Positions 1,577 through 38,538 of a DNA stretch of 46,351 nt are shown in pieces. This stretch comes from a virus, in the IMG/VR virus record IMGVR_UViG_3300047318_000434, positions 1-46,351 of that record; one strand, written 5' to 3'. Every line of letters begins with the position of its first letter. Position 1 is the first letter of the stretch. The notes beneath the pieces are model-generated. The model did not search any database, was not told the DNA's origin, and was given only the letters and a program-made list of their open reading frames with translations. A program made the translations under genes and the position numbers.

Positions 1577-2068
1577 TTACTCGCCGAGCTGCTCGCGCAG
1601 CCGGGCGACGATGCGGTCCGCGTCGTCCCGCTTGAGCTCCGCCCCGACCGGCACCAGGAGTCGGGTCGTAGGCGTGCGGTAGGCGCCCATGCCGACGTGC
1701 TCCACCAGGCGCACCCGGGACCGGCACAGGTAGCCGTACGGCGGCAGCACCTCGAACACCGTGTCGGGGTCGGTGGGCGCCTGGCCCGTCGCCTCGTCCA
1801 CGATCCGGTCCCCGAGCTCCGCGGGCATGAGCCCGTCGGGGCCAACAGGGGTTTCAGGCTCGGCAGGCTCGACCGGCGGGGCCGGAGGCTCCAGCGGCGC
1901 CACGTCCGGCGCCTTGGTCTCCGTGCCCTCGGCCGGAACTGCACCGATCTCTACGGCGTCAGAGACCGCCTTGTCCTCGGCCGGATCGGCGCCCGGCTCG
2001 ATGCCGTCGGCGACGGCCTTGTCCTCGGCCGGTTCCGCGGCCGTCTTACGGGTTCGGGCGGTTGCCAC
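1577..2068 (-). CDS. Phage structural-region protein with acidic Pro/Ala-rich N-terminus
   Basis: The GTG at 2068 is chosen because GGAGG lies 5 nt upstream; a longer frame from 2101 lacks such a site. The 163-aa product has a low-complexity N-terminal half rich in Ala, Glu, Pro and Asp, with EPAEDKAV-like units repeated near residues 10-40. A small globular C-terminal domain (about 85-163) follows, with a PPYGYLCRSRVRLVEHVG segment and a charged C-terminal helix. It sits between the IPT-domain gene and the connector-region gene. I do not recognise a family; a minor head or connector role is inferred from position. Confidence 0.6.
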   Translation of the reverse strand: MATARTRKTAAEPAEDKAVADGIEPGADPAEDKAVSDAVEIGAVPAEGTETKAPDVAPLEPPAPPVEPAEPETPVGPDGLMPAELGDRIVDEATGQAPTDPDTVFEVLPPYGYLCRSRVRLVEHVGMGAYRTPTTRLLVPVGAELKRDDADRIVARLREQLGE

Positions 2069-2120
2069 GACTTCCTCCAGGTGAGCGGGGGTTGGGGCCA
2101 CACCCTGACCCGGGGGGCGC

Positions 2121-4356: not shown

Positions 4357-5658
4357 TTACACCGGGGTGGTCCACGAGCCGATGACGAACGACTCCGGAC
4401 GGGAGACCTCCAGGGCGAGACGCTCGTCCGCGCGGAAGGTGAGGACACCGCGTTCGAAGTTGTCCGAGTTCTCGCTGGAGACGGTCACGGAGACGTTCTC
4501 GCGGTCGTAGATCTGCGCGCCCATCCCAAAAGAACCCAGAAGGTACTTGTCGTCCGGCATTGCGGTGGTTTCGACCACGTTGACGCGCCACACGCGCTTC
4601 TGGGCGCCGACGGCGACCTGGAGCGCGACACGGAACGCGCCGTTGTTGTCGGTCTCGACCTCCACCTGCTCCCACATGCTCGGGGAGAGGACGACGCCGG
4701 TCGGCTCGTACTCAGCCAGGAGCGCCTTGGTCATGGCCCGGCGCATCTGGATGGAGAACTTGTCGGTGTTGGCGCCGATGTACTGCTGTACGCCCGGGGT
4801 GTTGAACAGGCCGGTGATGGACTGACCGTCGCCGCCGATGGAGTGCAGAAGGTCGTAGTCCTCGGCGAACTTGATGCCCTCGATCAAGCGGCTGTTGATG
4901 AACTGCTTCAGCCGCGGCTCGTCCGAGAGGATGTTCTTGTGGCCGTCGAGCATGTGCGCGATCTCGGCCACCGGGAACGAAACAGGCTGGAGGGTCAGCT
5001 TCGAGCGGGGCGCCCGGCCGAACACGTCGGTGTCGGCTCCGGTCGGCGCGGACGTACCGTCGGCCGCACGACGCTCCGGGACCTGGGCCGCGTTGTTGAC
5101 CCACCCGGTCTCGCGGATGCCCTGAAGGATCGCGTTCTTGGTCGTGGCCTTCGGGAACAGGTCGCGGATGTGCATCTTGCGGCGCTGCGCCTCGGTGATG
5201 CCGAGATCCTCAACGCCACCCAGGGCCGGGTGAGTCTGGGTACCGGCCGACAGGGAGAAGATCGACTTCCCCTCCATCTCGGCGCGGATGAACGGGCGGT
5301 CCTTGAACTGGCCACGGGCCGCAGCCTGGTAGGCGTCGGACTCGACGAACATGTCGCCGAGCGACTTCACCTCGGTGTTGGAGCCGGAGGAGCCGCCGTA
5401 GTACTGGCCGGCCGCGGACCGCCCCTCGGGGGCGTCGAGGTACTGGCCGAGAGCTTCGGCGCCGGACGCGGCCTCGATCAGGCTCTTGATCTCCTGGGCG
5501 TCCTTGACGGACTTGACGTACGCGTTGCGCTGCTCGGTGGAGACGACGAACGCGCCGTTCTCCTCCTTGAACGTGCCTGCGATGCGCTCAGCCTCGGCAG
5601 ACTTCTCGTTGAGCTGCTGCTTCAGCGAGCGAAGCAGATTCTTGTCGGTGGTAGGCAT
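4357..5658 (-). CDS. HK97-fold major capsid protein
   Basis: The start at 5658 gives a 433-aa protein that begins with a charged, helical, coiled-coil-like delta domain (about 1-90), the usual internal scaffold. A Gly/Ser linker and the sequence TEVKSLGDMFVES follow, marking the expected maturation cut after Lys98; HK97 gp5 likewise loses about 100 N-terminal residues. The rest has the family layout, with a long central helix region and a C-terminal segment ending ESFVIGSWTTPV. A CAGGAG site lies about 12 nt upstream; an in-frame start at 5718 is less likely. It directly follows the protease gene, as in most HK97-type operons. Confidence 0.9.
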   Translation of the reverse strand: MPTTDKNLLRSLKQQLNEKSAEAERIAGTFKEENGAFVVSTEQRNAYVKSVKDAQEIKSLIEAASGAEALGQYLDAPEGRSAAGQYYGGSSGSNTEVKSLGDMFVESDAYQAAARGQFKDRPFIRAEMEGKSIFSLSAGTQTHPALGGVEDLGITEAQRRKMHIRDLFPKATTKNAILQGIRETGWVNNAAQVPERRAADGTSAPTGADTDVFGRAPRSKLTLQPVSFPVAEIAHMLDGHKNILSDEPRLKQFINSRLIEGIKFAEDYDLLHSIGGDGQSITGLFNTPGVQQYIGANTDKFSIQMRRAMTKALLAEYEPTGVVLSPSMWEQVEVETDNNGAFRVALQVAVGAQKRVWRVNVVETTAMPDDKYLLGSFGMGAQIYDRENVSVTVSSENSDNFERGVLTFRADERLALEVSRPESFVIGSWTTPV

Positions 5659-5761
5659 TTCGGTTGCACGCTCCTGTGCTGGATGGGCGATTGCGTGCGT
5701 CGCTCGCCCGGCCAGCACCGGGACGCCTCAACGCTGAGGCGCATGGAAAAGCACGGGTGCA

Positions 5762-5824: not shown

Positions 5825-8089
5825 TCAGAGCGCGAGTTCTGCGAGGGCCGCCTTCACTTCCGCGGCGTCCAGACGCACCTTGTCCTGGTCGTCGGGGTCG
5901 CCATCGGGCTCAGCGTCGGGCCCGTCGCCGGAGTCGCCGCCGCCGCTGGTGTTCCCCGGGGGAACAGCCGTGTCCGAGCCGCCCTCGGTGTCGGCATAGG
6001 GGATCTCCGCGTCGTCCTGCGAGCCCTCGCCGCTGTCGCTGCCGTCCCCTTCGTCGGCCATGTCGTCGTAGGCGCCGGGGTCCTCCTCGTCGTCCCAGCC
6101 GTCGGTGAGGGTGTACTTCCCCAGCCAGTCGCCGCCCGAGCCGTCGCCGCCGTGCATCTCGTCCGTCGGCATCCCCTTCTTCGACAGGGTGTCGAGGAGC
6201 TTGCCGATGGTGGGCTTCAGGTACTCAAGGTGCTCCGGCCCGGCGTCGGAGACCTGGATCAGTGCCGTGGCGTCCTCCAGTGCCCGCCCGGTCGGCTTGA
6301 TGTACCGCTCCTGGGTGGCTTCGTCGTCGTCCGCTTCCCGCTCCATGCCGGATACGGGGACGGCCACGGTCGTGAGCTCCACACGGACCGGCACGCCGAG
6401 GTCGATGTCGCGGCCGGACGCGGTGTACGGAATGGCGTAGGTCTCCGTCTCCCCGTCGTCGTAGCGGGTGACGATGACGCTGTCCGGATAGGTCGCCTCC
6501 ACCGTCACGAAGCAGTCGACCGGCTGCGTCGGGCCTGACTGATCGTCGTCCCGGTCGGGCGAGAACAGCGTGCGAGCGGCCTTGCCGAGCTGGTCGCGGA
6601 GCTGCTCGAAGGAGTAGGGCATGGGGGTGCTCATGATGCGCTCCGGAAGGTGTAGAGGCTCAGCGGCGGACTTGGCTTCGAGGACGATCCGCGCGGCCGA
6701 CTTGCGCTCTGCGGCCGCGTGGGTGGCGGGGTAGATCCCCATGGCGTCGTGATGGCGCAGGTTGCAGTAGCCCTTGGCGTCCTGCGGGCTCATGTGCTTG
6801 CCAGCGATGGCAACGCACCGGTCGAAGTCGCCGGGCGTTCCCCACGCGATATCCGAGGCGCCTTCGCCGTGGACGTACCAGTCACGCAGCTGCTCGGCGT
6901 CACCCTTGTTCTTGTCCCACCCGCCGGAGGCCTTCGCTTCCAGCACGATCCGCGCGGCCGACTTCCCCTCCATCGGAGGCGACGGCGGGCCCGCGGGCTC
7001 GTCGGTCGGCGCCTCTCCGAGGGGAACCTCGAACTCGTCCTCGCCGCGCACGCAGTGCAGTTGAGTGAACGTCACCGGTGTCGCCGGCACCGGATCCAGG
7101 TCGGGCATGTTGTAGCCGAGGGTGATGTGCGGGGTGAACCCGTGGTTGTCGCGCACGTGGTCGGAGTAGACCGACGTGGACAGCGCCTGCGCGACCCGCT
7201 GCCGCAGCTCCGCCAGGCCCGGCACGTCCACCGGCACCCACGTGGGTACTCCGTCCCCGCTGTCGGGGAAGCGGCCGATGCCGCCGATGCTGCCTGCCAG
7301 GGGCCCGGTGTCGTTCACGGCAGGGGTGACGATGTCGCGGAGGTCATCCGGGTGCCCGCCGAGGTCTTCCACGTCGCCGAGGTAGGCGAGCGTGATGTGC
7401 AGGTTCTCGGCCGGCGTGCCGTCGGGGTGAGCGATCTGCTCGGCCACGTCCTGCGGGACCTTCAGCGCGACCATCACGCCGCGGCCGGTCTGCTGTTCGG
7501 CGGCCTTCAGCTCGACGGCCGACCAGGTGGCCTTACGTTCCAGGTCCGCGGCGCGCTGCCTGCTGGCTGCCTTCACTTCGATGCTGCGGGTCATCGGGTG
7601 CGCGCCATGCAGCACGGGACTGACCTCGTACAGGTCGAGATCGTGGATGATGCGTACGCCGTCGTGCCGCTTGGAGGCGCCGCCGGGCGGGACCTTGAAG
7701 CCGATGGAGAACTGCGCCTCGCCGTTCTCGTGCCACTGCCGGACCTGTTCGTAAGCGTCGCGGCCGCGGGTGGTGCGCAGGTTGTACTGGACGGCGGCGA
7801 CCAGAGCCCCGGCTTCCTGGGGCCACACTGAGCCGCCCGGGATCGTGGCGAACCGAGGGTCGCCGGGCATCCACTCCTCGATCGAGAGGACGCTGCCGAC
7901 CGGTTCCTTCCAGTCGTGGTGCCATACCGGCTTCACGCGGCGCTTGGTCAGGGTGCGGGTGAACGCCCCGGGGATGATGAGGTCTTCGACATCGTCCACC
8001 ACGCCCGTGACGGCGTAGATGGCGCGGACGATGCCCTTTCCGCCGCGGGTGCGGCGCAGACTTGCGGTCTTGGGCGGCGGGCTCGGCAC
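5825..8089 (-). CDS. Prohead protease polyprotein with embedded 2H phosphoesterase domain
   Basis: GTG 8089 is chosen because AGGAGG lies 8 nt upstream; a longer frame begins at 8125. The 754-aa product (family norm about 200) starts with an S78/HK97-type maturation protease, with likely catalytic residues His57/58 (WHHDW), Ser128 (FSIGF) and Glu155 (YEVSPV). Residues about 200-360 are a 2H phosphoesterase (2'-5' RNA ligase-like) domain with two HITL motifs (231-234, 321-324). Residues about 388-460 form a Cys/His-containing domain (DFDRCVAIAGKH, GYCNLRHHD). Residues about 488-640 are a beta domain. The tail is very acidic and ends in a helix. Lys-Ala/Ser motifs separate these parts: IEVKAAS, VELKAAE, VLEAKAS, VLEAKSA and AEVKAAL. 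Protease and 2H calls are strong; processing into parts is inference. Confidence 0.85.
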   Translation of the reverse strand: MPSPPPKTASLRRTRGGKGIVRAIYAVTGVVDDVEDLIIPGAFTRTLTKRRVKPVWHHDWKEPVGSVLSIEEWMPGDPRFATIPGGSVWPQEAGALVAAVQYNLRTTRGRDAYEQVRQWHENGEAQFSIGFKVPPGGASKRHDGVRIIHDLDLYEVSPVLHGAHPMTRSIEVKAASRQRAADLERKATWSAVELKAAEQQTGRGVMVALKVPQDVAEQIAHPDGTPAENLHITLAYLGDVEDLGGHPDDLRDIVTPAVNDTGPLAGSIGGIGRFPDSGDGVPTWVPVDVPGLAELRQRVAQALSTSVYSDHVRDNHGFTPHITLGYNMPDLDPVPATPVTFTQLHCVRGEDEFEVPLGEAPTDEPAGPPSPPMEGKSAARIVLEAKASGGWDKNKGDAEQLRDWYVHGEGASDIAWGTPGDFDRCVAIAGKHMSPQDAKGYCNLRHHDAMGIYPATHAAAERKSAARIVLEAKSAAEPLHLPERIMSTPMPYSFEQLRDQLGKAARTLFSPDRDDDQSGPTQPVDCFVTVEATYPDSVIVTRYDDGETETYAIPYTASGRDIDLGVPVRVELTTVAVPVSGMEREADDDEATQERYIKPTGRALEDATALIQVSDAGPEHLEYLKPTIGKLLDTLSKKGMPTDEMHGGDGSGGDWLGKYTLTDGWDDEEDPGAYDDMADEGDGSDSGEGSQDDAEIPYADTEGGSDTAVPPGNTSGGGDSGDGPDAEPDGDPDDQDKVRLDAAEVKAALAELAL

Positions 8090-8187: not shown

Positions 8188-8817
8188 TCACTGCCACGGC
8201 TTGCCCTTCTTCTTGCGCTTCGGGTCTTCGTCGCCCGGGTCGGCGTTGGGGTCCGTGTCGTCCTGCTCCGCCGGGTCGGCGGGTACGGCTTCGTCTGCGG
8301 TGCCGTAGTCGAGCGAGAGGCCGCCGTCGTCCGCGGCCGCCGGGTCCGCATTCGGGTCCATGACTGTCGGGTCTGCGTTCGGGTCCGTCATCGCCGGGTC
8401 GCCGGCCGCCGGGTCGGTGGGTGCTCCGCTGCCGTCGTATGCCTGCGGGTCGCCCGCGGCCGGCTGCCCGCCGGTGCCGCCGGTCTGCGACATGCCCGCG
8501 TCGTCCACGTCGATCGCCCACGCGTCCACGTCGGAGTACCGGTAGACCTGTCCGGTCTCGTCACGTACCCAGCCCGTAAGCGTGCCGTCCTCGGCCTTGT
8601 CGAGCCATGCTTGCTCAGCGTTGGGCCCGGAGAACGACGCGTAGGCCTGCGCAGGGTCGGTCTCGTCGCCCTCGTCGTAGGCGTCGCCCGCCCACGGGCG
8701 CGCGTCATCCTGGTGCGGCGGCTGGAGCTCGGGCGGCTGCTCGGCCGCCGGGTCCAGGCCCTGCGCGGCCGGGTCGTCGGACTGGGGCAGCGCCTTCACG
8801 TCGAATCTGTAGTCCAC
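8188..8817 (-). CDS. Acidic low-complexity protein upstream of the protease
   Basis: A 209-aa protein dominated by Asp, Ala, Pro and Gly. It has DPNADP units repeated around residues 145-200 and a short lysine-rich C-terminus (KRKKKGKPWQ). One compact segment at about 55-105 (AQAYASFSGPNAEQAWLDKAEDG, then an Asp-rich YSDVDAWAIDVDD) may fold. The N-terminus contains FDVKAL, similar to the Lys-Ala motifs of the protease polyprotein. GTG 8817 has no clear ribosome site. It sits where phages often carry a scaffold or head accessory gene, and an acidic internal head protein is plausible, but no family is recognised. Confidence 0.6.
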   Translation of the reverse strand: MDYRFDVKALPQSDDPAAQGLDPAAEQPPELQPPHQDDARPWAGDAYDEGDETDPAQAYASFSGPNAEQAWLDKAEDGTLTGWVRDETGQVYRYSDVDAWAIDVDDAGMSQTGGTGGQPAAGDPQAYDGSGAPTDPAAGDPAMTDPNADPTVMDPNADPAAADDGGLSLDYGTADEAVPADPAEQDDTDPNADPGDEDPKRKKKGKPWQ

Positions 8818-32228: not shown

Positions 32229-32599
32229 GGCGTTGTCTCCTTGGTCTCCTCGGGGGGTGCAGGCAGGGGGCGGGCGCCGTGCCCGTCGTAGGGGGCAGCA
32301 ATGCCCGCGTCGATCAGGTCCGTGTTCAGGCACGCGCCGTCGGCGGCCGAGACCGTGGCGAGCCATCGGCCGTACTTCTCCCGGGCGTGGGTCTCCACCA
32401 CCAGCTCGGGGCCGTGCTCGGTGAGCCATTCGGCCACCCACGCCTTCGCGGCCTTGCCCTCCGGGGCGTTCTTCTCGGGGGCGTTCAGGCCGTTGAGGCG
32501 GAGCCGCTGCCGGGTGCGGATCGTGAAGCCGAGGTCGAGGTCAACGTCGAGGGTGTCGCCATCGACCACGCGAAGGACTGTGGCGGGGTAGGTGTTCAC
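32225..32599 (-). CDS. Staphylococcal nuclease (SNase)-like protein
   Basis: A 124-aa protein matching the thermonuclease fold: VDGDTLDVDLDLG (Asp13, Asp15), RLNGLNAPE (Arg34, Glu42) and EKYGRW (Arg78), then LIDAGIAAPYDG near the C-terminus. Arg34, Glu42 and Arg78 match the catalytic Arg35, Glu43 and Arg87 of staphylococcal nuclease. The calcium-ligand Asp40 position holds Asn39, which I believe is common in the phage/plasmid branch. No signal peptide, so it acts in the cell or virion. GTGA overlap with the portal gene indicates coupled translation. It could degrade host DNA or trim packaged or incoming DNA. Confidence 0.85.
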   Translation of the reverse strand: MNTYPATVLRVVDGDTLDVDLDLGFTIRTRQRLRLNGLNAPEKNAPEGKAAKAWVAEWLTEHGPELVVETHAREKYGRWLATVSAADGACLNTDLIDAGIAAPYDGHGARPLPAPPEETKETTP

Positions 32600-35064
32600 G
32601 GCAGGTCACGCCCTTCGGTGCGGTACCGCAGGCGGCAACGGCAGTTGATGGTCAGGTGGAGCGGGGCGAGCTGATCGCCGGGGAACCGCATCGGGTAGCC
32701 GTCCACGTCGAACGGCCTGGTGACCGGCAGGGTGGTGCCGTCCACGGCCTCATGTGCGGGCCGTACGCGGTCGTCTCCGCGGGTGACCCAGGTGCGGACG
32801 ATGCCGGGGCCGATCGCCGCGGCGGTGGCCTCCGCGGTGCCGTTGACGGTGGCGACGGCCGCGGTCTCGGCGGCGCTCGCTATGGCCTTGGCTGCCATGT
32901 CGCCGAACGCGGTCCGCGCGAGCGCCACCAGGTCGTCAATGTCGTCGGCCGCCAATTGCCCCTGCACCAGGAGCGTGGTGACGCTGTCGAGGAAGCCGCG
33001 GGCGATGCTCTCGGCGGCTGCCACGGCGTCGAGGACAGCGGCGGTGATGCGCGGCGAGGCCTCCGGCGGCGGCTTGGGGGCGCCGAACGCGTCGGCGGTG
33101 CGCTGGGAGACGGTGGCGGCGATGCGGGCCAGGACCCGGGCGAGCGCGCCGGTGATCTCCTCCATCCACCGGTCCGTGCCGACGATGCGCGCCACGTCGA
33201 GCGTGGTGTCTCCGCCGCGGATGTCCGATGGGTCCTGCGCACGCCAGAACTTGGTGCCCTTGCGTGTCTTGGGGGAACGCAGCCGGGCGGCGATCACGCC
33301 GTCCTGCCGGGCGAACAGGGCCTCAAGGGCGAGGGCTATCGCCTCTTGCGCGCGGTCGAAATCGTCGTCGGTGACCTCGAACGAGGGGCCGTCATCATCC
33401 GTGCCGGACAGTGCCTTGGTTTGCAGGCCTCGGGCGTCCTCCACGGCGGCTGCGGCCTCGCCCGGGGCGGGCGGCAGCTCGTTGGCGGTGCGGGCATCGG
33501 CGACCGCGGCCGCGGCTTCCCCGGCGCCGGCGGGCTGCTCGATGCCGGTGCGGGCCTGCGAAACCGCGGCGGCCGCCGGGCCGTTCGTGTCCGGCAGTGC
33601 GCCGGGGCCGGCGGGCTGTCCGCCTTCGGCGCGGGCCTGCGCGACGACGTCGGCCGCCGATCCGTCCGCCTGCTGCTGTGTGGGGTCGAGCGGCGCGTTC
33701 GGTCCGCCCATGCCCGGGATGGCGCCTGCGCCGCCTTGTGTGGGGTCGCCGTTGCCTTGGATGCCGAGCGCCGCGGCGTCCTCCGGGCGCAGCGGCACGG
33801 GCGCCTTCTGCGGGCTGATCCACAGGGCGCGGGAGTGCGGGTTGTTGTAGGCGGGCATGCCCGCGCGGCGCCGGTACTCGTCAATGGAGATCAACCCGGC
33901 GTCGAACTCGGATCGGGCTTCCTCGCGGCGCTTGCGGCGCGGCAGCTCCAGCGCCTGAACCGTCGAGGTGTTGTAGCGGATCTTCAGATCCAGGTCGCCG
34001 ACGTCCCCGGCGAACGCGTCGCTGATCAGCGCAAGGTGGCCGAGCTCCGTGTGAATCCAGAACCCGTACTCTTCCTGCTCGGCGTTGTCGAAGGTGCGGC
34101 CGGAGGCGTTACCGGTGACGGACTCGGGGACACCGAACGCGCCGAGGATCTCGATCTTCGCGTTCTGCGAGGCATGCTCGTAGGCCATCTCGCGCGGCTT
34201 GGTCGCAAGGTCCACGTAGTTCATGCCGCCAGGGCCTGCGCCGACGACGGAGACGTGCCCGGCGTACTGGGAGCCGGGCAGGAACCGGGCCTCCAGTCGG
34301 TCCATGTCCGAATCGGTGAGCGAGCCCGTGTCCACGGCCACGATGCCGCCGGGCCGTGCGTCGTTGCGGATGAACGCCACGTTGTACAGGCGGGACAGGT
34401 GGTCGAGTTCGATGCTGATCCCGGCGGCTTCCAGCGGCGTGACACCGGAGAACGGATCGGTCGGGTGAGGCTTCCTGATCCAGCGCACCCGCTCCGGATC
34501 GAGCTCACGGACGTGCCCGTACAGGGTCGTGAACTCGAAGTGCTTGATGTACTCGCCCTTTTCGTCGGGCACGGGGATGACCCGGTCCGGCGGCAGCAGG
34601 TCGAGACGTGTGATGGTGCCGCGGTTGCTGCGGGTCACCTCAACGAACGCGCCCCGCTTGGATAGCAGGATCTGCGCGGACAGCCGCTTACGGAGCTGCG
34701 CCCCCGACTCCATCGGGTTCGCGTGCGGCCCGTTCAGGACCCGCAGAAGCGGATGGTCCTCAATGACTTCCTCGAACTCGCCGTCTTCGGTCAGGCCGCG
34801 CCCGATCTCCAGCGGAAGACGGGCGGCGTGCTCGCCCATCGTGTCGATGGCCTTGTAGACCCAGATGACGCGTTCGTATCCCTCGGTGACCACCCGGCCG
34901 AGGTCCCAGCCGTCGGCGCGGCCCTCGGTGCCCCACACGTTGGTCGTACCGGCGTAGGTGGTGGAGGTGTAGCCACCCGTCCACGTGATCGTTTTCGACT
35001 CGTCCGGCTGCGGTCCTGGGGTGACCAGTGAGCGCAGCGCGGGAAGCCAGCGGCGTCGGGCCAT
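32596..35064 (-). CDS. Portal protein fused to a MuF-like head morphogenesis domain
   Basis: The ATG at 35064 has GGGGAGGAG just upstream, giving 822 aa. Residues about 20-440 are an HK97-type portal, with an N-terminal segment, DLLPPDRVIPV, and the PGGIVAVD...GSLTDSDMDRL region of the family. Residues about 470-560 are Ala/Pro-rich imperfect repeats with AAAVxxARTxxELPPAPGE-type units. After a linker with TKALS and a helical region, the last 120 residues are a MuF (SPP1 gp7-like) domain: TWVTRGDDRVRPAHEAVDG and a terminal HLTINCRCRLRY. MuF domains usually form a separate minor head protein, though fused forms exist in actinophages. The portal makes the DNA entry channel. Confidence 0.9.
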   Translation of the reverse strand: MARRRWLPALRSLVTPGPQPDESKTITWTGGYTSTTYAGTTNVWGTEGRADGWDLGRVVTEGYERVIWVYKAIDTMGEHAARLPLEIGRGLTEDGEFEEVIEDHPLLRVLNGPHANPMESGAQLRKRLSAQILLSKRGAFVEVTRSNRGTITRLDLLPPDRVIPVPDEKGEYIKHFEFTTLYGHVRELDPERVRWIRKPHPTDPFSGVTPLEAAGISIELDHLSRLYNVAFIRNDARPGGIVAVDTGSLTDSDMDRLEARFLPGSQYAGHVSVVGAGPGGMNYVDLATKPREMAYEHASQNAKIEILGAFGVPESVTGNASGRTFDNAEQEEYGFWIHTELGHLALISDAFAGDVGDLDLKIRYNTSTVQALELPRRKRREEARSEFDAGLISIDEYRRRAGMPAYNNPHSRALWISPQKAPVPLRPEDAAALGIQGNGDPTQGGAGAIPGMGGPNAPLDPTQQQADGSAADVVAQARAEGGQPAGPGALPDTNGPAAAAVSQARTGIEQPAGAGEAAAAVADARTANELPPAPGEAAAAVEDARGLQTKALSGTDDDGPSFEVTDDDFDRAQEAIALALEALFARQDGVIAARLRSPKTRKGTKFWRAQDPSDIRGGDTTLDVARIVGTDRWMEEITGALARVLARIAATVSQRTADAFGAPKPPPEASPRITAAVLDAVAAAESIARGFLDSVTTLLVQGQLAADDIDDLVALARTAFGDMAAKAIASAAETAAVATVNGTAEATAAAIGPGIVRTWVTRGDDRVRPAHEAVDGTTLPVTRPFDVDGYPMRFPGDQLAPLHLTINCRCRLRYRTEGRDLP

Positions 35065-35065
35065 G

Positions 35066-35428
35066 TCACTCCTCCCCGCCGCACACCCACACCGCGACGG
35101 CAAGCAGGGCGGCGAACAGCAGGGACCACGGGTTCACGGAGTACGCCACCGCGGTGATCAGCATCAGGCCGGCGGAGAGAGCGCCGTAGCCGCCTACCAG
35201 CCGGATCAGGCGTGGCACGGGCGGTGTGGTCTGAAGGACTGCGCCGCCTGCCGTGGCGGTGAGGAGCCCGATCAGGAGCAGGGCCACGGCCGGTGATCCC
35301 ATGGACAGGGCTCCCAGCAGGCCGACCGTTCCGGCGCCGACCAGGAAGAGGCCGATCAGGTCGCGGGCGAGGCGTCGCCGCGGTGCCCGATGGCTGGGGA
35401 GCGGTGGGGGCTGCGTTGGAGGATTCAC
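35066..35428 (-). CDS. Multi-pass membrane protein upstream of the portal
   Basis: A 120-aa protein starting with a GTG and a Pro-rich, basic N-terminus (about 1-22). Four hydrophobic helices follow at about 23-42, 45-65, 75-92 and 95-115, and it ends CGGEE. No ribosome site precedes the GTG, but a short hairpin lies directly in front of it. Its stop is 1 nt from the portal start. The function is unknown. Similar small membrane proteins near phage packaging genes may act in exclusion or lysis timing. Confidence 0.65.
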   Translation of the reverse strand: MNPPTQPPPLPSHRAPRRRLARDLIGLFLVGAGTVGLLGALSMGSPAVALLLIGLLTATAGGAVLQTTPPVPRLIRLVGGYGALSAGLMLITAVAYSVNPWSLLFAALLAVAVWVCGGEE

Positions 35429-36260: not shown

Positions 36261-37127
36261 TCAGAGCTTGGCCACGCTGACGAACCCCAGTGAGCGAAGG
36301 CCTTCGGCCTGGCACAGCCGGTCCGAGGCGCCCCCGATCTCGGTCTGCAAGAGCTGGTAGTCAGCGCCGTGCGTGGCTCCCCATGCCATAGCGGCGCGCC
36401 ACAGGGCGCGGCCGTGGCCGTGGCCGCGGTGCTCGGGCAGAACGCCGAAGTACTGCGGCAGGAGCCGGGTTGCCCCGGCCGAGTCGGGCATGGTCTCCAT
36501 GGGGCCGATCGCCCCTACGACGCGAGCTCCGTCGGTGGCAGCCAGGACAGGGCCGACGGAGCCGGTCTGCATCTGGCTGTGGAGGAATGCGAACCCGTCG
36601 CTGGTCAGCCGGTCGGCGAACGCGGCGAACGTCTCCCGTGTCGGCTGTGGCAGGACGTCCACCGCGCGGATGGGGCCGGGCTGGTCCTCGATCCTGGGGT
36701 GGGTGAATGGCTTCAACTGGACTCGGGTGACCGTGGTCCCGGCCGGTGGCGTCTCGTCGGGGCCGTGGAAGGTGACCACCCGGGCGGTGGAGACGCGATG
36801 GCCGGCGGTGAGCTTGGCGGCCAGGCTTGCGGCTTCTTCAGCGGCGGGCCCGTAGGTGTAGACCGTGAGGGTGCCGCTGCCGCGGGTGCGCAGCGTGGGG
36901 ATCAGAGTCCGGGCGGTGGTGTGCTCGATGTGCTCGGGCAACACCGTTTCATCCTTCGTCTCGGTCCAGCGCTGATCCTTGTCGTAGGGCAGGAACGTGC
37001 CGGTTCCGGCGACGCGCTGCACGTCATCGAACAGGGCCGGGGCCAGGGCGTCGGGGTGGACGGGGCCGATCGTCGGCACGTACGGCACCTGGATCACGGG
37101 GTGCAACCAGTCCCACAGCAAACGCAT
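36261..37127 (-). CDS. GNAT-family acetyltransferase of the RiPP-like locus
   Basis: A 288-aa protein. The C-terminal half has the acetyl-CoA-binding GNAT core: ARVVGAIGPM (strand), then QYFGVLPEHRGHGHGRALWRAAM (the R/Q-x-x-G-x-G/A loop) and a final LGFVSV strand. The N-terminal 160 residues are unusual and may recognise the substrate. It is the last gene of the operon, after the precursor peptide and a strong hairpin. In this setting it could acetylate the mature peptide or confer self-protection. The fold is certain; the substrate is inferred. Confidence 0.8.
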   Translation of the reverse strand: MRLLWDWLHPVIQVPYVPTIGPVHPDALAPALFDDVQRVAGTGTFLPYDKDQRWTETKDETVLPEHIEHTTARTLIPTLRTRGSGTLTVYTYGPAAEEAASLAAKLTAGHRVSTARVVTFHGPDETPPAGTTVTRVQLKPFTHPRIEDQPGPIRAVDVLPQPTRETFAAFADRLTSDGFAFLHSQMQTGSVGPVLAATDGARVVGAIGPMETMPDSAGATRLLPQYFGVLPEHRGHGHGRALWRAAMAWGATHGADYQLLQTEIGGASDRLCQAEGLRSLGFVSVAKL

Positions 37128-37158
37128 GGGGCCAACGCTACTCGTCTGCCACGCACGG

Positions 37159-37193
37159 CTCGGGCCCCGGCGCGGAATACGTCGGGGCCCGAG
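37159..37193 (-). terminator. Hairpin between precursor peptide gene and GNAT gene
   Basis: A perfect 11-bp inverted repeat, CTCGGGCCCCG / CGGGGCCCGAG, with a 13-nt loop and no T-run. In RiPP operons such stems after the precursor often give partial termination or 3' protection, so that more precursor than enzyme is made. Confidence 0.6.
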
Positions 37194-37216
37194 TGATTGT
37201 TACCGGTTGCGACCGG

Positions 37217-37420
37217 TTAGTGCGGGTTGTCGTCGCCCGCGTTGCAGCTGCACTTCGCGCTGTCCATGAGCGCGTCCATGTTGGTGATGCCGGTGATCTG
37301 GGTGACCGGCTGGACGGGGACGGGGGCCGGTCGTGTGAAGTACGGCAGGCCTTCGCCCTGGGTGGGCCCGTCGTCCGGGAGCGGGCGCCTGGGGGAGATC
37401 TCGACTGCTACAGCGGTCAT
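37217..37420 (-). CDS. Putative RiPP precursor peptide
   Basis: A 67-aa peptide encoded 2 nt after the radical SAM gene stop. Residues 1-45 look like a leader (Pro-rich, with GLPYFTRPAPVPVQPVTQI). The C-terminus TNMDALMDSAKCSCNAGDDNPH is the likely core, with Cys57, Cys59, two Asp and a terminal His. A short, Cys-containing peptide next to a SPASM enzyme is the standard layout of radical-SAM RiPPs, in which Cys or other side chains are cross-linked. I do not recognise this core. The cleavage point and the modification are unknown. Confidence 0.65.
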   Translation of the reverse strand: MTAVAVEISPRRPLPDDGPTQGEGLPYFTRPAPVPVQPVTQITGITNMDALMDSAKCSCNAGDDNPH

Positions 37421-37422
37421 GT

Positions 37423-38538
37423 TCACCCTGCTTTCTTCTGTCCGTGCTGGCAGTAGCTCGCCAGCGGGGCTTTCGCCTCCTGGTAGTGCTTGGCCAGGGG
37501 CCTGCATACGGTGCAGGAACCGGAGAGCGTGCAGCCTGAGCAGCCTCCGGTGCGAAGCATCAGGCGGTCCGCGATCGCGCCCAGTCGGGCGAGGCCCTCG
37601 ATTCCCTCTTGGGGGAGGCTGATCTGGTCGTCGCGGCCGATTTTGCAGATGGACACCAGGCCGTGCGGGTCCATGTGGAAGAAGGTGTGTCCGGCGTTGC
37701 AGCCCGTGAACTGCTTCCGCATCCGCAGGTGTTCCTTGGACTGCGCGGTGAGGACTTCCCCGCCCCCGTAGATGGTGGGGGTCATGTTCGTGTAGACCTC
37801 GCGCTCCACACCCCACCGGTCGCAGAGGTCGATCATCGCCTGTTCTTCGTGGGCGTTGTCCTCGGTGACGATGACGCTCATGCGCAGCGGCAGCCGGGCC
37901 CGCCGGGCGGCGTTCATGCCCTGGACGAACAGGTCCCAGGCGCCTGCGCGCTGCGTCAGCTCGTCATAACTGGCCTTCGTCGCGCCGTACATGGAGACCG
38001 TGACGCGGTACGGCGGGCACTCCTCGAAGAGGCGCAGCAGGTTCTCGCGCCACAGCAGTGAGCCGTTGGTGGAGACCGTGAGCATCATGCCGAGCTCGAA
38101 CGCGTGCCGGTACGAGCGCATGAAGTCCTTGTCGACGACTGGCTCACCGCCCGTGATCTGAAGCCACAGCACCCCGGCCCCGGCCATGGTTTCCAGGCAG
38201 CGCAGCTTGTCCGCCAGCGGCATGCCGCTGTTCACCTTGAGCCCGAGATAGCAGTGTTTGCAGGCGTAGTTACAGCCGAGGTTGACCTCCCAGCTCGCTT
38301 TCGAGTAGCCCCAGGGGGACGGCTGCCGGACGAGCAGGAAGTCACCCGCCGGCCGCCCGGCCGTGTCCATGCCCCACTGGTCGCGGACGGCGTGGGCCAG
38401 CCACGCGGGTGCGGGCTGGGCAGGGTCGTGGGCCCGCAGCTCCTCATAGTTCGCTTCGGGCAGGAGAAGGCCGTCTTTGTGGCCGGGCCGCAGGAGCAAG
38501 TGCTGTTCTAGGAACGGGCTCGCGATCAGGGTGTACAC
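37423..38538 (-). CDS. Radical SAM/SPASM peptide maturase
   Basis: A 371-aa enzyme starting at a GTG with CTGGAGG upstream. Cys89, Cys93 and Cys96 (CNYACKHC) form the CxxxCxxC site for the SAM-binding 4Fe-4S cluster, and GGEP follows near 135. The C-terminal region has GCNAGHTFF...GLVSICKIG and then CSGCTLSGSCTVC...YC, the Cys pattern of a SPASM domain with auxiliary clusters. The first 80 residues may hold a leader-binding part. It should install a radical-made bond, for example a thioether or a carbon-carbon link, on the adjacent precursor. The upstream gene overlaps it by 13 nt. Confidence 0.85.
   Translation of the reverse strand: MYTLIASPFLEQHLLLRPGHKDGLLLPEANYEELRAHDPAQPAPAWLAHAVRDQWGMDTAGRPAGDFLLVRQPSPWGYSKASWEVNLGCNYACKHCYLGLKVNSGMPLADKLRCLETMAGAGVLWLQITGGEPVVDKDFMRSYRHAFELGMMLTVSTNGSLLWRENLLRLFEECPPYRVTVSMYGATKASYDELTQRAGAWDLFVQGMNAARRARLPLRMSVIVTEDNAHEEQAMIDLCDRWGVEREVYTNMTPTIYGGGEVLTAQSKEHLRMRKQFTGCNAGHTFFHMDPHGLVSICKIGRDDQISLPQEGIEGLARLGAIADRLMLRTGGCSGCTLSGSCTVCRPLAKHYQEAKAPLASYCQHGQKKAG

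Follow-up and report, generated by a model that had tools for sequence, protein, structure and literature searches.

In the herpesvirus UL26 protein, one cut follows the N-terminal protease and another lies near the C terminus, where UL26 binds the capsid protein (PMC12474303). Amongst tailed phages, the mature capsid protein of HK97 starts at Ser104 (PMC5701804), and purified Prohead 2 of the HK97-like phage D3 contained cleaved capsid protein only (PMC12749128). The protease gp245 of phage SPN3US removes its own C-terminal propeptide, which has been proposed to target gp245 to the prohead. Enzyme domains have also been described within head gene clusters. The polyvalent phage proteins of Iyer et al. 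(2017) bring together disparate head-cluster enzyme domains, 2H included, for which release by an embedded peptidase was proposed (PMC5512222), and capsid proteases fused to MuF or capsid genes are found in Microbacterium phages (PMC7302621). According to the accessible part of another article, fusions of Nudix to a capsid-processing serine peptidase, MuF or portal were known in 2022, 2H is fused to MuF or portal, and packaging and injection of the Nudix and 2H fusions were proposed; processing sites, cassette exchange and a link to the capsid cut site do not appear in that part (PMC9503650).

Here, a 46,351-nucleotide stretch of viral DNA (the window), positions 1 to 46,351 of record IMGVR_UViG_3300047318_000434, was analysed. 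The window matches contig IMGVR_UViG_3300046794_000491; amongst its near relatives are Streptomyces phage Gilgamesh and a contig from Streptomyces pseudogriseolus. From sequence comparisons, we consider it probable (approximately 0.75) that one of its genes encodes a prohead protease/cargo polyprotein that cuts itself during head maturation. Neither a cut-site map, a match to the capsid site and cargo exchange, nor proteomic data for this phage group, were found in the literature searched, which lay mostly outside subscription journals.

Domain layout of the protease gene

The gene and its domains were delineated as follows:

5825..8089 (-), gene for the prohead protease, the putative polyprotein, 754 aa, 80.9 kDa
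7586..8035 (-), S78 prohead protease domain, residues ~19-168 (PF04586), with VWHH and FSIG motifs
7016..7480 (-), cargo slot 1, 2H phosphoesterase, residues 204-358 (PF13563), with two HxT motifs
6716..6901 (-), cargo slot 2, Cys/His domain, residues 397-458 (phrog_6439)
6173..6613 (-), beta domain, residues ~493-639, constant across the family by alignment
5870..6172 (-), disordered acidic linker, residues 640-740, with pLDDT under 50 over 644-740

The reading frame is open from 8125 to 5825 (-), encompassing 766 residues, and the start was assigned to the GTG at 8087-8089 by aligning the relatives. The protease matched Peptidase_S78 (PF04586) in Pfam with 48.3 bits relative to a cut-off of 21, an assignment supported by a PHROGs match to phrog_80, and residues H58 and S128 are the conserved catalytic His and Ser, invariant in the protease alignment. 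Slot 1 matched 2_5_RNA_ligase2 (PF13563) in Pfam with an E-value of 5.6e-13, whilst the PHROGs match of slot 2 to phrog_6439 spans residues 405-475 in the numbering of the 766-residue frame. Rather than cargo, the beta domain and the acidic tail seem to be fixed pieces of the protease gene. Unrelated enzyme domains are thereby combined in a single head-cluster polypeptide, protease with 2H here and protease with Nudix elsewhere.

As the protease profile matched no chain amongst PDB sequences, folds were compared instead. Using VIA-align, the protease fold was matched to T4 gp21 (Z 10.0); the values for herpesvirus proteases were 8.7 for VZV and 8.2 for PRV pUL26N, with a range, including HCMV, of 7.2-8.7. 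The 2H domain fold matched drCPDase (Z 17.0) and the anti-CBASS protein Acb1 (Z 10.0, VIA-align). An NTF2/cystatin-like identity for the beta domain was considered and rejected, its matches having a Z of only about 8 or less, too weak to assign; the best match of this domain in a viral library was a prohead protease, though weak (E 0.0066). In the AlphaFold model (mean pLDDT 68.8) the folded domains are linked by low-confidence stretches at 176-202, 362-379, 384-395 and 456-488, and a C-terminal helix (742-753) stands isolated.

By analogy, the arrangement of the window protein resembles that of UL26, with enzymes replacing the scaffold. UL26, which cleaves itself at R and M sites in capsid maturation, likewise carries at its N terminus a serine protease of broadly the same fold, and the window protein has candidate sites at K173 (R-like) and K746 (M-like) around a long inner part. 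It differs from UL26 in that the inner part consists of enzyme domains and six further sites, the candidate cut motif is E-x-K/[A/S], no sequence match was found, and the window's capsid protein has an N-terminal scaffold-type extension of its own. As in HK97 and D3, the S78 protease adjoins an HK97-fold capsid gene whose product bears an N-terminal extension of ~118 residues (the delta domain in HK97 and D3), but the window protease is a multidomain protein of ~81 kDa, whereas such proteases are usually short. The SPN3US gp245/T4 gp21 type is similar in that one short motif, with Ser preferred at P1', is common to several head substrates, yet this motif is A-x-E and the cargo proteins are encoded by separate genes. 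In the polyvalent proteins the assemblin-like peptidase was reported to be always C-terminal (PMC5512222), unlike the N-terminal peptidase of the window protein, in which candidate cut sites can also be mapped, and of three large proteins described below.

Candidate cut sites in the protease and its relatives

The original prediction, made from the window's sequence, had placed five sites of a common Lys-Ala/Ser form (IEVKAAS, VELKAAE, VLEAKAS, VLEAKSA and AEVKAAL) at the domain borders of the protease. All five were found in the protein, but the total is eight, with ERK/ATWS, EGK/SAAR and ERK/SAAR to be added; and although K-[A/S] is indeed shared, the true form is narrower, namely E-x-K-[A/S]. 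Besides the Lys, a Glu at P3 is the strongest feature common to the sites, which, along with an 11-residue repeat, are:

7571..7573 (-), site 1, IEVK/AAS, K173, directly behind the protease domain; K invariant in 24 aligned relatives
7532..7534 (-), site 2, LERK/ATW, K186; E and K 100% in 24 rows
7505..7507 (-), site 3, VELK/AAE, K195, ahead of the 2H domain; K in 50% of rows
6962..6964 (-), site 4, MEGK/SAAR, K376; K 100%, E 96%
6932..6934 (-), site 5, LEAK/ASG, K386, from the alignment
6701..6703 (-), site 6, AERK/SAAR, K463, from the alignment
6671..6673 (-), site 7, LEAK/SAA, K473, from the alignment
5852..5854 (-), site 8, AEVK/AALAELAL, K746, 8 residues before the C terminus; K 96%
6932..6964 (-), KSAARIVLEAK repeat, copy 1, from the sequence
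6671..6703 (-), KSAARIVLEAK repeat, copy 2, identical to copy 1 at 30/33 nt

Against these eight occurrences, 0.30 were expected from whole-protein shuffles and 0.34 from linker-only shuffles. The predicted location at domain borders was upheld, with none of the eight falling within the protease, 2H, Cys/His or beta domain. Site 3 (VELK) is patchy and is retained mainly in 2H-type proteins. In the AlphaFold model most sites lie in or beside low-confidence stretches, site 1 ends the last protease strand, and site 8 is within the isolated C-terminal helix. The repeat is present twice, as had been claimed (6964-6932 and 6703-6671), and cuts at both of its ends would free the decapeptide SAARIVLEAK.

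A protease-domain scan retrieved 79 loci, from which 30 proteins, including that of the window, constitute a close group; the WHH/WSH and SIG protease motifs are present in all 30. E-x-K-[AS] occurs 195 times in these proteases, relative to approximately 9 expected from shuffles, and 195 of their 260 K-[AS] occurrences have Glu at P3. All 195 are located in linkers, which account for 35% of residues, a share that is slightly overstated because the domain limits were set by simple sequence marks that missed or shortened one domain in three proteins. An alignment of related actinophage proteases, which had been suggested as a check on the prediction, came out in its favour, with the E, K and A/S site columns 91% conserved, compared with 44% for other linker columns and 66% for domain columns. 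As the 30 proteases are akin, the motif counts are not independent trials; the difference in conservation and the swapping of cargo are the weightier evidence.

Between the conserved sites, the cargo is a 2H domain in 13 of the 30 proteases and Nudix in the other 17, with Nudix occupying slot 1 in Gilgamesh gp52. The active-site motifs of the cargo were intact throughout (13/13 for 2H, as two HxT/S motifs, and 17/17 for Nudix). The Cys/His domain is present in 11 of the 30, scattered over the protease tree; in the case of the near-twins L004 and L005, it is absent from L004. This domain is also encoded in other head-gene proteins and stands alone in many actinophages. There were some exceptions to the site pattern, including L039, with a single E-x-K-[AS], and the C-terminal sequences EVRAAL (L036 and L037) and EVKDAL (L040).

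The loci L046, L050 and L091 encode proteins longer than 2800 aa in which the S78 protease takes up the N-terminal position, flanked on both sides by K-type motifs; in L050 and L091, the two for which this was counted, E-x-K-[AS] was not enriched further inside. L091 continues into a helicase region much like that of a 7240-aa protein encoded in the window between the portal and protease genes, at 10240-31962 (-), which has SNF2-type and UvrD-type helicase domains and is similar in make-up to a giant Streptomyces polyvalent protein (PMC5512222). The portal is fused to a MuF-like domain, at 32596-35103 (-), the MuF match being below the Pfam cut-off, and a radical SAM gene and a GNAT acetyltransferase gene are situated beyond the head genes, at 36261-38538 (-). 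In other lineages, a K-type motif begins the protease itself, as in L041, L042, L044 and L047 (LNYKAVP, LQYKSVG, LEYKAIS and LEFKATT, respectively), as if these were N-terminally trimmed too.

Capsid protein, other possible substrates and a second phage group

Sequences of the cut-site type were also sought in the products of neighbouring genes, amongst them:

4357..5718 (-), HK97-fold major capsid protein (PF05065, E 8.6e-28; HK97-fold matches in PDB)
8188..8817 (-), acidic 209-aa protein directly upstream of the protease gene, with a conserved N-terminal VK/ALP

The capsid gene is the next gene downstream of the protease gene, and its product contains TEVK/SLG (K codon 5365-5367), which matches the protease sites. 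The resemblance noted in the original prediction was confirmed in relatives, with E-x-K-[ST]-[LF]GD kept at the start of the mature region in 29/29 capsid proteins of the group. Residue 103 of the HK97 capsid protein is a Lys. The motif alone is not sufficient for a cut, however, because EGKSIF (within EGKSIFSLSAG), in the capsid core, fits it and is conserved across the whole group. A cut at EGKSIFSLSAG would break the shell, and this sequence may have another purpose.

Judging from its N terminus, FDVK/ALP here and FEVK/ALP in L016, the acidic 209-aa protein is a possible further substrate. The same may apply to a 174-aa protein encoded at 1577-2101 (-), in which three E-x-K-A were observed (EDKAVA, EDKAVS and ETKAPD), with similar proteins in L018 and L022. 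The 7240-aa neighbour was rejected as a substrate, given that two E-x-K-[AS] were seen relative to 3.3 expected, and no site was found when the portal protein was searched for the motif.

The same cargo domains were identified with another head-protease family, phrog_18402, in other actinophages (GTE6, Nike and A3Wally), in which the repeated motif is [LIVM][TVI]A[SA][AG] (A-type). In a sample of 80 loci of this second group, the A-type motif occurred 265 times in protease ORFs (14 expected) and 173 times in the next large ORF (9 expected), which was assigned as the capsid gene by position only; it should be considered that three of these phages had been read before the motif was picked, and that their close kin are amongst the 80 loci. 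E-x-K-[AS] showed a marginal excess in these protease ORFs (66 vs 50 expected) and occurred 7 times in the next ORF (24 expected). The window's group was the reverse, with E-x-K-[AS] seen 195 times in the protease (9 expected) and 82 times in the capsid protein (10 expected), and the A-type motif once and not at all, respectively. The second group is thus suggested by its sequences to have the same layout with a different motif, common to protease genes and capsid proteins.

Proposed processing, alternatives and significance

Self-processing is favoured because the sites are enriched, confined to linkers, conserved whilst the cargo changes, and of capsid type in two phage groups. The claim of a self-cleaving polyprotein therefore passed every test that could be applied at the level of sequence, namely enrichment, restriction to linkers, conservation and the capsid match, and we infer a separate cut site for each domain. 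The proposed chain, in the order of N-terminal S78 protease, cargo enzyme, optional Cys/His domain, beta domain, acidic linker and short C-terminal helix, would enter the prohead entire, and by analogy to UL26 and SPN3US gp245 the C terminus may act as a tether. Conserved matching sites suggest that the protease would act at E-x-K/[A/S] both on the capsid protein, which would lose its first ~118 residues at this signal, and on its own chain. The predicted pieces are a protease of 19.2 kDa, 2H of 19.0 kDa, Cys/His of 8.4 kDa and beta domain plus tail of 29.1 kDa, along with two SAARIVLEAK decapeptides. Speculatively, the folded enzymes would remain in the head and be delivered to the next host, in which the possible role of 2H or Nudix is to break down nucleotide signals or mend RNA ends. 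Since nothing but cleaved capsid protein is kept in D3 Prohead 2, the fragments may instead leave the head and not become the internal head proteins of the original prediction. Standard tryptic proteomics would be blind to the cuts, because cleavage behind lysine would be common to trypsin and the proposed enzyme.

Of the alternatives, the one that survives best, though we regard it as unlikely, is minimal processing akin to that of herpesviruses, in which cuts only behind the protease and near the C terminus free the protease and tether; the inner sites would be weak or unused and the inner part would be a scaffold, expelled or degraded. That UL26 is cut at two places only, that sites 1 and 8 are among the best conserved, and the content of D3 Prohead 2 are all in keeping with this. 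However, most inner sites are conserved to about the same degree, and the domains enclosed by them are exchangeable enzymes whose catalytic motifs are intact, which speaks against this reading.

It is also conceivable, but improbable, that the KSAxxxVxEAK units are uncut helices attaching to the inner shell, either as spacers or for capsid targeting, their likeness to the capsid site reflecting shared binding. These units are indeed modelled as short helices and are present one to four times per protein (four in L033), often with a spacing of 10 residues. Yet the shared part is only E-x-K-[AS], coincident with the capsid maturation site, and this motif also marks joints without a helix unit (sites 1-3 and 8), whilst in the second group this role is taken by a different motif. 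Least credible is an origin of the pattern by chance in Glu/Lys/Ala-rich linkers with recent duplication, since, although one duplication does contribute (as the near identity of the two 11-mers indicates), this was largely refuted by linker-only shuffles of the 30 proteases (6.9, at most 15, vs 195 seen) and by the far better conservation of site columns than of other linker columns, and the 7240-aa neighbour has no excess of sites.

If self-processing is true, phage head-protease cut sites would be readable by matching the repeats of protease genes to the capsid maturation site, and many actinophage annotations such as ‘capsid maturation protease’ and ‘RNA ligase’ would become lists of predicted virion enzymes. 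Phages would then have, in the window protein, an equivalent of the protease-scaffold polyprotein of herpesviruses in which enzymes stand where the scaffold would be. A broader and more tentative proposal, which we hold at somewhat under even odds, is that phages have at least twice made prohead proteases into self-processing vehicles that bring many copies of swappable nucleotide-acting enzymes into each head. As the joints would use the lineage-specific cut code of the capsid, cargo may, in the course of evolution, be gained or swapped between copies of the capsid cut site.
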